Origin: Gammaproteobacteria bacterium
GTDB lineage: Bacteria > Pseudomonadota > Gammaproteobacteria > Pseudomonadales > Pseudohongiellaceae
Assembly: GCA_030831165.1 (NCBI GenBank)
Contig: JAURLP010000012.1
Span: 1-64,000 of the forward strand
Length of the DNA: 64,000 nt
Direction: 5' to 3'
Shown: positions 19,583 to 25,765 of the stretch, one piece after another
How positions within the stretch are numbered: position 1 is the stretch's first letter
How the letters are laid out: the number at the start of each line of letters is the position of its first letter
Notes under the pieces: model-generated
Told to the model about the DNA's origin: nothing
Databases searched by the model: none
The model's input: the letters and a program-made list of their open reading frames with translations, nothing else
Program-made: the position numbers and the translations under genes

Positions 19583-20938
19583 CTAGAACAGGACTCTTAA
19601 GCCTGTTTGGACTCTGTTTCTATCCCAGCTATATAAATCAATATTGCTTTCATTATCGGAGTAGGTGAAATCTGTTGTTACAGTAAGATTAGAATTAAGC
19701 TGCCATATCCAGCCTAATGAAGCAGAAGAAGTGTTATTGGTACGTGTAACGTTAAAAATGGGATCAGCAGCCCCATGATCATTCATCTGTACTGATAAAC
19801 GACCGTATATTAGGTGTCGAGGTCTCAATAAATACTGGTCAGCTAATGCAAGTCCAACAAATTGAGTTTCATTGTTTTTACCTATGGAGTTTTGAATACT
19901 GTCGTCTCCCCAAAAAATGCTTATGCTGAGTTGATTTCGGTTACTTGATTTTGTTATTACACCAGAAACTAGAAATTGATTAATATCACGCAAATTAGCA
20001 TTAGGGTTTTGTCCTGTAGCATAGCGAACCATTGTGTAAGCACCAGTCAATGACTGGGACCAGCCATCACTGCCGATGCGCTGTAATGAGTTAAGGAAGG
20101 TGGCGCTGTTCTGAAACTTTTTCTTATCCAGTTCAACCAGCTGCAAGCGAAGCGCATGTGAATAACGTAGGTTAGAGTTTAGACCCCAATTATACCCGGC
20201 CTGACCTGACCATATGGTTAAATCAAATTGATCAGTCACATGATTGTTGCGCAAATTATAGTTCGCCTGGGCAGTGATATTTCGGCTTTTATCAATAGGA
20301 CGGGTATAACTGATGTTCCCGGTATATGCTGTAAAAGAATCATTTATCTTCTGCCCCCCCGGACTCAGGGTAACATCACCAATAGGCGTATCGATCACGC
20401 CTAACTCTGTGGCGCTATTAATATTACTGTCTGTACCAGCATTTATACTTAAACTAAAGTTAAGAATACTGTCAAAAGAGCTCTGAGCTTGGTCAATCAG
20501 TTGAAGAAAAGCTTCTATGTTAGCTCGAACATTCTGGGTTGGATTGGTTGCAAGAACTTCAGTAAAAAGAGTTTCGGCGGCTGCATAGTTTTCGCTAAGA
20601 AAGTAGGCTCTAGCCAGCTCCAGTCTTACACGCTGCTGTCCGGTATTAGTAAAAGCAATTCTTTCAAAGGCAAATACCGCTTCATCAGGTCGACCAGATT
20701 CTAATGCAGCCAGTCCATAGGCAAAATCGAAATTAGGCTCGCCTTCATAATCAAACAAACCTGTTTGACCAAGCGCGTAGGCTTCCTGGTAACGACCCAT
20801 CTCTATTAGAGCATTCATCTTGGCAACTAATTCAGCTTGAGACTCGGCGGCGAAAGCATTGCCTAAATAAGTAAGCTGGAAGCTTAAAAACAGGATTATG
20901 GAATATATACATTTCATATTAAACATTGATGGGTACAT
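19583..20938 (-). CDS. Outer-membrane beta-barrel protein with N-terminal TPRs (Slam/DUF560-like)
   Basis: Predicted outer-membrane protein. A signal peptide ends near NAFA|AES (cleavage about residue 30 from the first ATG). Residues ~35-155 are TPR-like helices (MGRYQEAYALGQ, AALESGRPDEAVFAFERI, AYFLSENYAAAETLFTEVL). Residues ~165-451 are amphipathic beta strands starting with LSINAGTDSNINSATE, a motif typical of DUF560/Slam and related TPR-barrels. The terminal residue is Phe, as in BAM substrates. ATG at 20938, 20926 or 20917 are all possible, the last giving the most compact signal peptide; none has a clear ribosome site. It is divergent from the RND transporter gene. Slam proteins export surface lipoproteins; no candidate cargo gene is adjacent, so function remains open. 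Confidence 0.7.
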   Translation of the reverse strand: MYPSMFNMKCIYSIILFLSFQLTYLGNAFAAESQAELVAKMNALIEMGRYQEAYALGQTGLFDYEGEPNFDFAYGLAALESGRPDEAVFAFERIAFTNTGQQRVRLELARAYFLSENYAAAETLFTEVLATNPTQNVRANIEAFLQLIDQAQSSFDSILNFSLSINAGTDSNINSATELGVIDTPIGDVTLSPGGQKINDSFTAYTGNISYTRPIDKSRNITAQANYNLRNNHVTDQFDLTIWSGQAGYNWGLNSNLRYSHALRLQLVELDKKKFQNSATFLNSLQRIGSDGWSQSLTGAYTMVRYATGQNPNANLRDINQFLVSGVITKSSNRNQLSISIFWGDDSIQNSIGKNNETQFVGLALADQYLLRPRHLIYGRLSVQMNDHGAADPIFNVTRTNNTSSASLGWIWQLNSNLTVTTDFTYSDNESNIDLYSWDRNRVQTGLRVLF

Positions 20939-21168: not shown

Positions 21169-23685
21169 ATGATCAATTTCTATCTGCAACTGGTTTTAAA
21201 AAATCCAAAAGCCTGCCTATTTCTGGTTTTCTTACTGACTCTGTCATTAGGCTGGTTTGCACAATACTTCAGGCTAGATGCATCATCAGACACTCTGGTA
21301 GTGGAAGGCGATGCTGATCTGGAGCTTGCCCGGGAAACTAACGATCGTTATAACACCAGTGATTTTGTCTTTATTTCCTATAGCCCGGAATCTCCTTTAT
21401 TCGAAGAATCAAGCTTGGCAAAATTGCGGGCACTCAAGGACGAACTGGAGCTAATGGAAAGAGTGCGCTCTGTTGACAGTATTTTTAGTGTTCCTCTGCT
21501 TAAAGTGGCAGGGGTGCCCTTGACCGAACTGGCTGACAATATAAAGACACTTGATGATCCGGATATCGACCTGCAAGCCGCGAGGGATGACTTGGCCAGT
21601 AGTGTTGCCTATCGAGACGTTTTACTGAGTGAAGATGCAGAAACTACAGCCTTGATTGTAAATTTCACGGCAACGACTCAACTGGATGAGGTCGCGGATC
21701 AAAGAGCTATTCTGCGAGCTATCCCGGAAGCAGAACTTAATCAGCAAGAAAAACAGGAACTAGCCACTCTTGAAATCAAATACCGAGAACTAAATACACA
21801 AGCCGATATAAACCAACACAACGATATTGCAGAGATTCGATCTATATTGGATAAGTATCGCTCTGATGCCCTAATAGTCATGGGCGGTGTTCCCATGATT
21901 GCTGACGATTTAATTACCTTCGTACAGAACGATTTGCAAACATTTGGTTTGGCAATTTTACTATTCATCATTATCACTTTAGGGTATCTGTTCAGGAAGA
22001 TTCGTTATATAGGAATTCCTTTAACTTCTTGCGCAGTCACTGCCATTTGTATTGTTGGTCTCTTAGGACTCCTGGACTGGCCAGTGACAGTTATTTCATC
22101 AAATTTCATCTCACTATTGTTAATCATTACGATTTCACTGAATGTGCATTTAATCGTGCGCTACCGGGAATTGGAGAGCATAGATGCTGAAATGGCTCAT
22201 CTAGATCGTATTCGCATGACCTTGCAGAATATGGTTAAACCATGTGCATACACCAGTTTGACGACAATCGTAGCGTTTGGTTCGCTGCTTAGTAGTGACA
22301 TTCCCCCCATTATTAATTTTGGCTTAATGATGGTGATGGGTGTGGCCTTGGCATTCCTGCTTACCTTCTTGGTTTTTCCGGCTTTGATGAGTTTGTTGAA
22401 AACTAACAAGTCATCATCAGGTAAACGCATTGTAGATGTGACGCCCTATATGGCAGCACTCACTGAACATTTTGGTAAAGGCATATTAGCTGTTGCTGGT
22501 TTGATGTTTGTTTTAAGTGTGATGGGCATGAATCGTTTAGAGGTTGAAAACAGTTTTATTGATTATTTTGATGAAAGTACGGAAATTTATCAGGGCATGG
22601 TTTCAATAGATCAGAATATGGGTGGTACAACGCCACTTGATGTCATTATTAATTTATATCCTGATGATGAAGAACTCGCAGTAAATAATGCTGAAATTGC
22701 CAATGCATCAGAAGAAGAGTTTCCCATCGATGATTTTTTCCTGGAAGATGATGGCTTCTTCCTAGAGGAAGACTTTAGCGAGGAAGATCAGCAGGCTTAC
22801 TGGTTTACCACCGACAAAATGGCCTTAATTTTAGCCATACACAATTACCTTGATGACTTGCCTGAAACAGGGAAAATTCTTTCCCTAGGAACGATTTTAC
22901 AGGTTGTCTATGAGCTTAATGATAATGAGCCGCTGGATAACCTTGAATTAGCGGTACTTTATGGATTAATTCCGCAAGATTATAAAGATGCTTTAATCAC
23001 TCCTTATGTTTCTATCGAAAATGATCAGGTCCGATTTTCCATCAGAGTGCTTGAAACCAATCCGGATTTGATTAGAAATGAATTGCTGATCAAAATCAGA
23101 GAAGGCCTTCAGCAAGAATTCGGGCTCGGTGAAGATCAGGTGCTACTAACTGGCATGTTTGTTCTATATAACAATATGTTACTTAGTTTGTTCGATTCCC
23201 AAATTCTCACTTTAAGTCTGGTTCTGGCAGTTATATTCGTCATGTTCATTATATTGTTCAGGTCACTAAAATTGGCTTTCTTAGGAATATTGCCGAACAT
23301 TCTTGCTGCATCATCGGTATTAGGCTTGATGGGGTGGCTTAATATACCTCTTGATATGATGACAATTACGATTGCAGCGATATCAGTTGGAATTGGCGTT
23401 GACAATACTATTCACTATATTCACCGCTTCAAGGATTACTATCCGCAACATCAGAACTATCTGGAAACGATGAAATATTGTCACGGCAGCATTGGGCAGG
23501 CTATGTATTACACGAGTTTTACGATTATTGTGGGTTTTTCGATATTGGTATTTTCAAATTTCATACCAACCATTTACTTTGGTTTACTGACTAGTTTGGC
23601 AATGTTTATAGCCTTAACCGGGGCTTTAACTCTATTACCGCAGTTATTAATAAGCTTTAAGCCTCTGGGAAAAGAAGCTGTGTAA
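21169..23685 (+). CDS. RND/MMPL-family transporter
   Basis: Inner-membrane exporter of the RND superfamily, MMPL/hopanoid-exporter-like branch, 838 aa. Topology is the duplicated RND plan: TM1 at residues ~13-33, a periplasmic loop (~34-255), a five-helix bundle (~260-410, sterol-sensing-domain-like), a second anchoring helix near 440, a second loop (~460-675), and a second bundle (~680-835) with AISVGIGVDNTIHYIHRFKDYY, a conserved TM4-like motif of this group. The second loop has a very acidic insert (about residues 505-545) rich in Glu, Asp and Phe. No periplasmic adaptor or outer-membrane channel gene is adjacent on this strand, but a TPR/barrel outer-membrane protein is divergently encoded. 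Substrate unknown; related proteins move lipids or hopanoids. Confidence 0.82.
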   Translation: MINFYLQLVLKNPKACLFLVFLLTLSLGWFAQYFRLDASSDTLVVEGDADLELARETNDRYNTSDFVFISYSPESPLFEESSLAKLRALKDELELMERVRSVDSIFSVPLLKVAGVPLTELADNIKTLDDPDIDLQAARDDLASSVAYRDVLLSEDAETTALIVNFTATTQLDEVADQRAILRAIPEAELNQQEKQELATLEIKYRELNTQADINQHNDIAEIRSILDKYRSDALIVMGGVPMIADDLITFVQNDLQTFGLAILLFIIITLGYLFRKIRYIGIPLTSCAVTAICIVGLLGLLDWPVTVISSNFISLLLIITISLNVHLIVRYRELESIDAEMAHLDRIRMTLQNMVKPCAYTSLTTIVAFGSLLSSDIPPIINFGLMMVMGVALAFLLTFLVFPALMSLLKTNKSSSGKRIVDVTPYMAALTEHFGKGILAVAGLMFVLSVMGMNRLEVENSFIDYFDESTEIYQGMVSIDQNMGGTTPLDVIINLYPDDEELAVNNAEIANASEEEFPIDDFFLEDDGFFLEEDFSEEDQQAYWFTTDKMALILAIHNYLDDLPETGKILSLGTILQVVYELNDNEPLDNLELAVLYGLIPQDYKDALITPYVSIENDQVRFSIRVLETNPDLIRNELLIKIREGLQQEFGLGEDQVLLTGMFVLYNNMLLSLFDSQILTLSLVLAVIFVMFIILFRSLKLAFLGILPNILAASSVLGLMGWLNIPLDMMTITIAAISVGIGVDNTIHYIHRFKDYYPQHQNYLETMKYCHGSIGQAMYYTSFTIIVGFSILVFSNFIPTIYFGLLTSLAMFIALTGALTLLPQLLISFKPLGKEAV

Positions 23686-23761
23686 TTACTATTTAAAGTC
23701 TAATAAGAGACTCTGGGGGCTAATGAAGTTTCGACGGCTGCGGGATAACTGGAAGTGGTCT

Positions 23762-23856
23762 TCGCTAGTTCAAGATGGATGACTTTAATGTTTCATATAA
23801 GATCTTATCTTATATGAAAAAAACGAGCGTCTTCGTACTTCACCTTGAACTAGCGA
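23762..23856. repeat. Nested inverted repeat (large hairpin)
   Basis: Outer arms TCGCTAGTTCAAG (23762-23774) and CTTGAACTAGCGA (23844-23856) are perfect 13-base complements. Inside them, nearly concentric, TTTCATATAAGAT (23791-23803) and ATCTTATATGAAA (23807-23819) form a second perfect 13-base stem with a 3-base loop CTT. The inner stem is followed by an A-tract and preceded by T residues, so it could terminate transcription on either strand. GTCTTCG also occurs as a direct repeat at 23758-23764 and 23829-23835. Confidence 0.85.
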
Positions 23857-24233
23857 GTCGGATCAAGATATAGACCCAAAGCAGCAGAATAAATAGCGCA
23901 AAATTTATGCCAGTTTTTAATTCAGCGTTAATGTGCCAAGCTTCAAAGACTTAAGCATAAAGCTAATAAAATCAAGTAGATAAACGTTATTTTTAGGTTA
24001 TCAGCTTTCTTAATTTAGTTTATTTTCAGATACTTAGCCCAGTTAATTAATGGAAAAAAAATCAAACAATTTACTTAATTGATAAGAAAAATCGTTTGCA
24101 ATTTGAAAAAAAATGCTTATTGGATAAAGACTTAGTTTTTTTATTAAAAAATAAAAAATATTTTTTGAAAAAACGAATAAATACTCCGCTTTTGTAATGC
24201 TAAAATTTGCAAAAGTAGTTGGGGATTTAAGTG

Positions 24234-24262
24234 TTGAAACTGTATTGGGGCTATGGCACAAT
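24234..24262 (+). promoter_or_regulatory. Candidate sigma70 promoter for tig
   Basis: TTGAAA (24234-24239), 17-base spacer, CACAAT (24257-24262), about 100 bases before the tig start. Motif match by eye. Confidence 0.4.
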
Positions 24263-24364
24263 CCGCCTCTGCCAGTTAGCCAAGAATAATAAGCTGCTGA
24301 TTTTTAATATATTATTTTGGTTTCATCATCCATATTCTCTGCTTTCCATATTTGAGGTTTATAA

Positions 24365-25765
24365 ATGCAAGTTTCCCTTGAAACGCTTTCAGGTTTGGAG
24401 CGTAAATTAATAATTGAAGTACCTGCTGAAACAATAGATAAGCAAGTACAAAAGCGTTTAGCTGAGACTGCAAAAACTTTCCAGATGAAGGGCTTCCGCA
24501 AGGGGAAAGTTCCTGTCAGTGTTATAAAAAGTCGCTTTGGCAAGAGCATGCGCCAGGAAGTTCTGGGCGATGTTATGAATCGCTCATATTACGAAGCGTT
24601 GTTGCAGAAGAAAGTTAGGCCCGCCGGGCAGCCCAAGATTGAAGCCACTAATATGAAAGAGGGTGAAGACCTGGCATTCACTGCTATCTTTGAAGTTTAT
24701 CCAGAAATTACCTTAAGCGACTTTTCCAAAATAAAAGTAGAAAAGCGTCAGGCAGAGATTACTGAGAAAGATATCGACAACATGATTCAGACTTTACGTG
24801 AGCAAAGAAAACATTATCACAAAACAGATCGTGCAGCCCAAAAAGATGATCAGTTGAATATTGATTTTACAGGCTCAATTGCAGGAGAAGAATTTGAAGG
24901 CGGTGCAGCTAAGGGAAGCAAGCTTATTTTAGGCTCAAACAGCATGATACCTGGTTTTGAAGATGGACTGCTGGGGTGCAAAGCCGGTGGAGAAAAGCAA
25001 TTAAAGCTAAAATTTCCCAAAGATTACCATAAAGCAGATTTTGCCGGAAAAGACTGTGTTTTTGACGTAAAAATCAATTCAGTTTCTGAAGTTCATTTAC
25101 CGGAATTGGATGAGGACTTTTTCAAGTCCTTTGAGGTTAAAGAAGGCGGCTTAGAAGCCTTCAGGGATGAAGTTAAACAAAATATGAGCCGGGAGTTGGA
25201 TAATGCTGTTAAGAATAACGTCAAACAGCAAGTGCTGGATGCCTTGCTTGAGACCATTTCAGTGACCTTGCCCAAGTCAGTGGTAGAAGCTGAGGTTAAT
25301 AACCTGCGTCAGCAGACTATCCAGCGCTATGGCGGCAACCAAAAGATAGATCCATCATTGCTTCCTGCAGAGATGTTTCAGGCCCAAGCAGAGCAAAGAG
25401 TCTCTATTGGTATGATTATTAATGAAATCATCCAGCAGAATGACCTTAAAGCAAGCCCGGCCAAGGTGAGGCAAATTATCGAAGAGCTTTCTGCTGGGTA
25501 TGAAAATCCTGAAGAGGTTATTGCCTGGTACTATGGAGACCAGGAACAACTGCAACAAATTGAAGGTCTAGCACTTGAAGAAACGGTTATTGACCTAATA
25601 TTAGATAAAGCTCAAGTTGCTAAAAAAGAAACCAGTTATGAAGAAGCATTAAAACCGGTAGAGAAGCCAGAGAAAAAATCGGCGAAAAAAGCGGCTAAAG
25701 CCGATACTGCAGAGCCCAAGGAAAAGGCTGAAGCAAAACCGGAAGAGCCAGAATCTAAAGAATAG
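24365..25765 (+). CDS. tig: Trigger factor
   Basis: Ribosome-associated chaperone and peptidyl-prolyl isomerase that meets nascent chains at the exit tunnel. The ribosome-binding signature GFRKGKVP (residues ~44-51) is in the N-terminal domain; the FKBP-type PPIase domain spans ~150-245 (DQLNIDFTGSIAGEEFEGG, MIPGFEDGLLG); the rest is the helical chaperone arm domain. After residue ~430 there is a Lys/Ala/Glu/Pro-rich tail absent from E. coli Tig, making 466 aa versus 432. First gene of the tig-clpP-clpX-lon cluster, with 48 bases to clpP. Confidence 0.97.
   Translation: MQVSLETLSGLERKLIIEVPAETIDKQVQKRLAETAKTFQMKGFRKGKVPVSVIKSRFGKSMRQEVLGDVMNRSYYEALLQKKVRPAGQPKIEATNMKEGEDLAFTAIFEVYPEITLSDFSKIKVEKRQAEITEKDIDNMIQTLREQRKHYHKTDRAAQKDDQLNIDFTGSIAGEEFEGGAAKGSKLILGSNSMIPGFEDGLLGCKAGGEKQLKLKFPKDYHKADFAGKDCVFDVKINSVSEVHLPELDEDFFKSFEVKEGGLEAFRDEVKQNMSRELDNAVKNNVKQQVLDALLETISVTLPKSVVEAEVNNLRQQTIQRYGGNQKIDPSLLPAEMFQAQAEQRVSIGMIINEIIQQNDLKASPAKVRQIIEELSAGYENPEEVIAWYYGDQEQLQQIEGLALEETVIDLILDKAQVAKKETSYEEALKPVEKPEKKSAKKAAKADTAEPKEKAEAKPEEPESKE

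Follow-up and report, generated by a model that had tools for sequence, protein, structure and literature searches.

The intergenic region between an RND/MMPL transporter gene and a presumed trigger factor gene of a gammaproteobacterial genome was found to contain what is probably an independent small RNA gene (estimated probability, about 0.72), which would be transcribed from the minus strand by sigma-54 RNA polymerase, from a promoter at positions 23913-23898 leftward to about position 23756. All positions refer to the window, that is, the whole stretch of 64,000 nucleotides that was analyzed. The promoter motif, the strand, the covarying stem, the conservation, the synteny and the sharp 3′ boundary can be read from the sequence itself. 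The functional unit is larger than the nested palindrome described in the original prediction, and comprises about 23756-23913 on the minus strand plus the sites upstream of it.

The Nested Palindromes and the Predicted RNA

As the original prediction had claimed, two perfect 13-base stems lie one inside the other and almost concentrically in this region. The arms of the outer palindrome (23762-23774 and 23844-23856) are perfect over 13 bases and stretch to 16 bases at 94% (23762-23777 with 23841-23856), and those of the inner one (23791-23803 and 23807-23819) are perfect over 13 bases around a 3-base loop, the centers being at 23809 and 23805, respectively. The distance from the stop codon of the RND gene was 76 bases and the gene-free region measured 679 bases, each one base shorter than had been given (77 and 680). 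No other perfect inverted repeat of 13 bases or more, with its arms separated by no more than 100 bases, occurs in the 64 kb window; since simulated Markov windows contained none (eight of ten) or one (two of ten), the pair is beyond chance. Both strands were folded, as had been proposed, and each fold was better than those of 200/200 shuffles (z = -4.5 over 201 nt for the plus strand and -6.1 over 141 nt for the minus strand). Among the three readings originally offered, that of a structured RNA, on the minus strand, was supported, and those of a bidirectional terminator and of a mobile element or REP-like unit were not upheld.

The predicted RNA is about 131 nt long (23756-23886, minus strand); its start is placed 12 nt past the -12 base of the promoter, and its end at the point where conservation ceases. 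Homologues were read in 48 of the 77 genomes positive with a covariance model. The RNA would begin with a hairpin of variable sequence (P1, 23858-23879, minus strand, by predicted fold), and 39 of the 48 predicted folds have a 5′ hairpin with 4 bp or more ahead of the stem. The long stem P2 follows on the same strand, its 5′ arm (23841-23856, the outer palindrome) being supported by covariation and its 3′ arm (23762-23777) by the perfect repeat and covariation. It encloses the perfect 13-bp inner hairpin (23791-23819, minus strand), and it is followed by the conserved 3′ tail AGACCA (23756-23761, minus strand), where conservation ends. The inner palindrome forms an apical hairpin that varies among the homologues and is not conserved in sequence. 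Two apical hairpins were present inside P2 in the consensus fold of genus g4 (alignment A7, built from 28 of the 29 sequences that g4 contributes to the 48), and the inner palindrome of the window may be the counterpart, by position, of the second one in these predicted folds of relatives.

The covariation was measured in an alignment of 32 homologues (A6, which omits row 33 of alignment A5, a reverse-strand match to the window palindrome). The 16-bp P2 helix was paired in 96.5% of 512 cells, and compensatory changes on both sides were observed in 12 of the 16 pairs, a value reached in 0/500 shuffles. Even the least striking of five covariation measures on P2 was reached by only 1/500 shuffles. 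When 14 pairs were read on the minus strand in the 32 sequences, 411 Watson-Crick, 33 G-U, 0 A-C and 4 other cells were counted. The RNA was therefore assigned to the minus strand, because the 33 G-U cells stand against no A-C cell.

The last seven bases of the 48 homologues were GAGACCA in 39, AAGACCA in 5, GAGACTA in 3 and TAGACAA in 1, and the information past the tail was 0.98 bit at one base and 0.18 at two bases. Conservation ends sharply at AGACCA(A), whatever gene comes next. A tmRNA fragment had been considered for the stretch GGGGGCTAATG...TTCGACGG near 23715, which resembles the start of a tmRNA, and was rejected: it is not conserved in three relatives, ARAGORN detected 0 tRNA or tmRNA genes in the window, and the real tmRNA of this genome is on another contig.

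The Putative Sigma-54 Promoter and the Sites Upstream

A putative sigma-54 (-24/-12) promoter of the form GG-N10-GC, CTGGCATAAATTTTGC, lies at 23898-23913 on the minus strand, and the pattern YTGGCAYRNNNNTTGC matched once in the window against 0.10 matches expected. The GG-N10-GC motif, with TGGCA and TTGC, was found in register in 48/48 of the homologues read. In PMC6296734, GG-N10-GC is given as the characteristic sigma-N promoter sequence. Promoter and RNA occurred in 77 of the 137 genomes of the family, at a single locus in each. The rpoN gene was present in 131/137 of these genomes, that of the window included; the six without a match include three RNA-bearing ones, estimated 65-75% complete. 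Four strong matches to sigma-54 activators (enhancer-binding proteins, EBPs) were obtained in the genome of the window: one NtrC above the NCBIfam cut-off, one partial PspF-like match and two without an assigned type.

A motif search without a position prior detected STAWCTNNTTGWTT at -71 and -125 from the promoter, with a score of 313.7 compared with 216 in shuffled sequences. On the reverse strand, we take this motif to resemble the IHF consensus. In the window, the first IHF-like site (TTTATCTACTTGATTT, 23969-23984, minus strand, position -71) is good, and its position is fixed in most homologues; the place of the second (GCTAAGTATCTGAAAA, 24023-24038, minus strand, position -125) holds a weak site, below the threshold in this genome. 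Both sites were present in 25/32 of the sequences used and in 14/16 of those held out; by genus, they were found in 5/5 (g2), 5/5 (g5), 27/29 (g4), 1/4 (g1), 1/4 (g8) and 0/1 (g6). The strict IHF consensus occurred in 8/48 upstream regions, compared with a shuffled mean of 2.0. According to PMC6296734, IHF binding between enhancer and promoter may aid activation by sigma-54.

The activator CbrB was suspected since the upstream motif also precedes a CrcZ-like gene elsewhere in the genome. This candidate was rejected: the motif is IHF-like, and CbrB subsites (TGTTAC/GTAACA) were rarer upstream than in shuffles (2/48 regions vs. a mean of 9.7). NtrC-type words were not clearly enriched (18/48 regions vs. 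14.1). Repeated STAAGT words were seen farther upstream in g1, g2, and g5 (about 24060-24140 in the window). They might be activator sites; over all 48 regions, the exact words scored are at most slightly enriched (GTAAGTG in 4, 1.5 in shuffles; TAAGTC in 11, 9.0 in shuffles).

Distribution and Genomic Context

A DNA similarity search of 57 genomes matched the element only in the genome of the window itself (1/57), and the relatives missed in this way were reached by synteny and a covariance model. The same intergenic region was retrieved, via the trigger factor protein, from three genomes of the same genus (L041, L042, and L043), in which the outer stem is kept, the sequence of the inner hairpin is not, and a further 55-75 bases or so on the tig side are alike at 77-78%. 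Homologues with differing stem sequences were found in three genomes of a sister genus (g2). Over the family, a first covariance model (R1) matched 74/137 genomes at E ≤ 0.1 and a second one (R2) 77/137 at E ≤ 0.01, the E-values of such models being rough; the R2 matches comprised one locus in each genome and six of eight genera, and additional matches in those genomes were the same palindrome read on the other strand. No R2 match was obtained in 60 of the 137 family genomes, some of them incomplete; these 60 include every genome of g3 and g7 and, out of five in the genus of the window, one (G004).

On the order, R2 matched 9/390 genomes, seven within the family and two judged on reading to be chance. 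On the class, 6/369 genomes were matched, namely that of the window and five others with weak matches; by pattern, two of these five had a promoter-like motif without the tail, and three had neither. The strongest of the five (G719, E 7e-5) proved to be a longer, unrelated palindrome matched on either strand and was rejected. Dispersed copies in this genome and in relatives, for which a search had been proposed, were not found, each of the 77 genomes with a match having one locus. Nor was this a single copy confined to one genome, which the original prediction had regarded as an argument against any element, because conservation in relatives was established by synteny and the covariance model.

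The neighbors in the window are the RND/MMPL transporter gene (21169-23685, plus strand, Pfam MMPL), which is convergent with the RNA, and an ORF at 24365-25765 (plus strand), which we take to be tig (trigger factor) and which is divergent from it. Ahead of tig, a sigma-70-like promoter (TTGAAA-17-CACAAT, 24234-24262, plus strand) diverges from the RNA; it is kept in four aligned genomes, L043 differing by one base in the second hexamer, and the scan that contained it gave 2 promoter-like sites vs. 3.6 in shuffles. The RNA gene diverges from tig wherever this was checked (for example, in G009, G011, G015, G016, G019, and G020). Downstream of the RNA, the gene is a convergent RND gene at the g1 and g2 loci, a TPR/porin-like gene at the two g8 loci read far enough (L097 and L113), and a small DUF6316 gene at most g4, g5, and g6 loci.

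The DUF6316 assignment was confirmed by Pfam for three proteins, and by eye we take the DUF6316 proteins (WYF-TREG-GPF; L104, L105, L023, and others) to resemble a GYF_2-type domain. RNA and DUF6316 were found together in 57 genomes. The RNA occurred without a DUF6316 match in 20 genomes, including that of the window and all 17 RNA-bearing genomes of g1, g2, and g8, and DUF6316 occurred without the RNA in 30. At three g3 loci, DUF6316 directly faces tig, and a pattern search upstream of tig gave no sigma-54 motif.

Two further observations were made around these loci. A TPR/beta-barrel gene lies at 19583-20938 of the window, some 3 kb away from the RNA. By eye, it is similar to the gene downstream of the RNA in g8 (L097 and L113), a likeness that suggests a local rearrangement. 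At two g5 loci (L027 and L030), a nucleotidyltransferase ORF, presumably MobA-like from its sequence, is located between tig and the RNA promoter.

Alternative Explanations

The main rival to an independent RNA gene is a leader turned solitary. The element would be a cis-acting 5′ leader of DUF6316, with a sigma-54 promoter and a structured UTR controlling the small protein, and a relic where the gene has been lost. DUF6316 lies downstream on the same strand in 57/57 of the genomes that have both, its profile match starts 28-437 nt past the RNA, and at two g5 loci (L104 and L115) the start codon is 16 nt past AGACCA, as a leader would have it. However, a relic should decay, and the 20 RNA-bearing genomes without a DUF6316 match keep stem, promoter and tail. 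In addition, 30 genomes have DUF6316 without the RNA, no sigma-54 motif was detected by pattern at the three g3 loci, and conservation ends at the tail irrespective of the downstream gene. We consider the leader improbable. Since 20 genomes carry the RNA without a DUF6316 match and 30 carry DUF6316 without the RNA, this is probably a regulatory RNA in its own right.

A more speculative reading, which we regard as doubtful, would place the RNA in a new class: induced by sigma-54, it would obtain its 3′ end by cleavage instead of termination at AGACCA behind the long helix, perhaps through tRNA-type enzymes (RNase P or RNase Z, for instance) recognizing a stem that has an ACCA overhang, and it would be cut from the DUF6316 mRNA where that gene is present and act elsewhere as a lone protein decoy. 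The exact ACCA is missing in 4/48 tails, and the predicted folds mostly leave a tail of 6 nt, not 4 nt (37/48), both of which argue against it.

It is very unlikely that the element functions on the plus strand, as a structured element in the 3′ UTR of the RND mRNA. The palindrome folds there too, and a plus-strand consensus fold was possible on four sequences; yet the 33 minus-strand G-U cells would become A-C mismatches, with none the other way, the conserved block downstream is the minus-strand sigma-54 promoter, and another gene is on that side in g4, g5, g6, and g8. A plus-strand model built from the four sequences, in which UGG/CCA would close the RNA and YAG/CTR would form a small stem, was rejected as well: the block that would form these stems is the sigma-54 promoter, the would-be partners differ in g2, and the G-U count sets the minus strand.

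A bidirectional terminator between convergent transcripts, one of the readings first offered, is just as improbable. A strong hairpin does stand beside the RND stop codon, but the outer stem has no T-run on either strand, and the scan for intrinsic terminators (GC stem plus T-run) gave 0 sites in 23400-24400; moreover, there is no convergent pair to separate in g4, g5, g6, and g8, because the downstream gene is codirectional with the element. The REP-like or small non-autonomous mobile element, also first offered and now scarcely credible, has the palindromic shape alone in its favor and is contradicted by a single place in this genome, one locus in each of the 77 genomes, beside tig where checked, and no match in plasmid and phage collections.

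Several observations count against the small RNA gene itself. Of the 137 family genomes, 60 gave no match, although some of these are incomplete; no terminator was found in the window; CbrB subsites are scarce upstream and NtrC-type words not clearly enriched; the IHF-like pair is missing in g6 (0/1) and in most of g8 and g1 (1/4 each); and the same-strand DUF6316 gene downstream in 57/57 fits a leader too.

If the independent small RNA gene is correct, transcription from the sigma-54 promoter would start near 23886 on the minus strand and would require an ATP-driven enhancer-binding activator, with IHF bending the upstream DNA. The folded transcript would consist of a 5′ hairpin, then a 16-bp stem capped by apical hairpins that vary, and finally AGACCA as a single-stranded tail. 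It would most likely act by binding, with the conserved stem base and the tail, either a protein or another RNA. Where DUF6316 comes next, sigma-54 transcription may run on into it.

Comparison With Known Small RNAs

To our knowledge, few sigma-54-dependent small RNAs are known; GlmY/GlmZ, Qrr and CrcZ/CrcY are central to envelope, quorum-sensing and carbon control. The RNA proposed here would add a further sigma-54-dependent family, one that Rfam 15 does not match, in a family of Gammaproteobacteria that is known here mainly through genomes assembled from the environment. It would lend itself to direct testing, because its stem covaries, its promoter is fixed and its 3′ boundary is exact, and its shifting downstream neighbors offer a natural experiment on the interconversion of leader and free-standing RNA.

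No Rfam 15 family matched the window at the gathering score, and no match to CrcZ (RF01675), GlmY/GlmZ or Qrr was obtained with Rfam on 11 homologue loci at E ≤ 0.5; at a lax threshold, five sub-threshold matches in 801 bases were taken as chance. In literature searches on sigma-54/RpoN-dependent small RNAs, trigger factor and leader RNAs, DUF6316, tRNA-like small RNAs and small RNAs in Pseudohongiella, no description of this RNA was found. The terminator hairpin with a 3′ U-tail that is the hallmark of Hfq-dependent small RNAs was not found in the scan of the window, and AGACCA is followed by variable sequence in the 48 homologues. Because no terminator or U-tail was found, the RNA does not look like a classical Hfq small RNA.

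A separate CrcZ-like gene was observed in the genome of the window (2514-3053 of L121, a locus on contig C20), between cbrB-like and pcnB-like genes and with a terminator hairpin by eye. One of the EBPs without an assigned type sits between what we take to be gluQ-like and pcnB-like genes and precedes the CrcZ-like gene; no histidine kinase ORF was found between the gluQ-like and cbrB-like genes of L121. Among 15 cbrB-pcnB gaps read (L121 and L150-L163), 14 contained three or more CA motifs together with one or more CbrB subsite words, 12 of these 14 with an exact TGGC...GC sigma-54 site, and the 130-nt gap of L153 is without a CrcZ-like gene. The Rfam CrcZ model gave a sub-threshold match in the cbrB-pcnB gap at one of three loci scanned (20.6 vs. 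95 bits, E 0.14).

GlmY and GlmZ of Enterobacteriaceae are sigma-54-driven small structured RNAs, as the window RNA would be, and they differ from it in genomic neighbors and structure. The window RNA also lacks an Rfam match to GlmY/GlmZ. With CrcZ/CrcY of Pseudomonas, it shares a sigma-54 promoter and an IHF-like site, but it differs in its locus, in that no terminator was found, and in having CbrB subsites in only 2/48 regions. Furthermore, the CrcZ CA motif AANAANAA was present in only 8/48 window-type RNAs; by genus, at least one was found in 5/5 (g2), 2/4 (g1), 1/4 (g8), 0/29 (g4), 0/5 (g5) and 0/1 (g6). In contrast to the Qrr RNAs of Vibrio, the window RNA has no Rfam match, no terminator hairpin in the scan and one locus per genome, but it is proposed to share with them the dependence on sigma-54.
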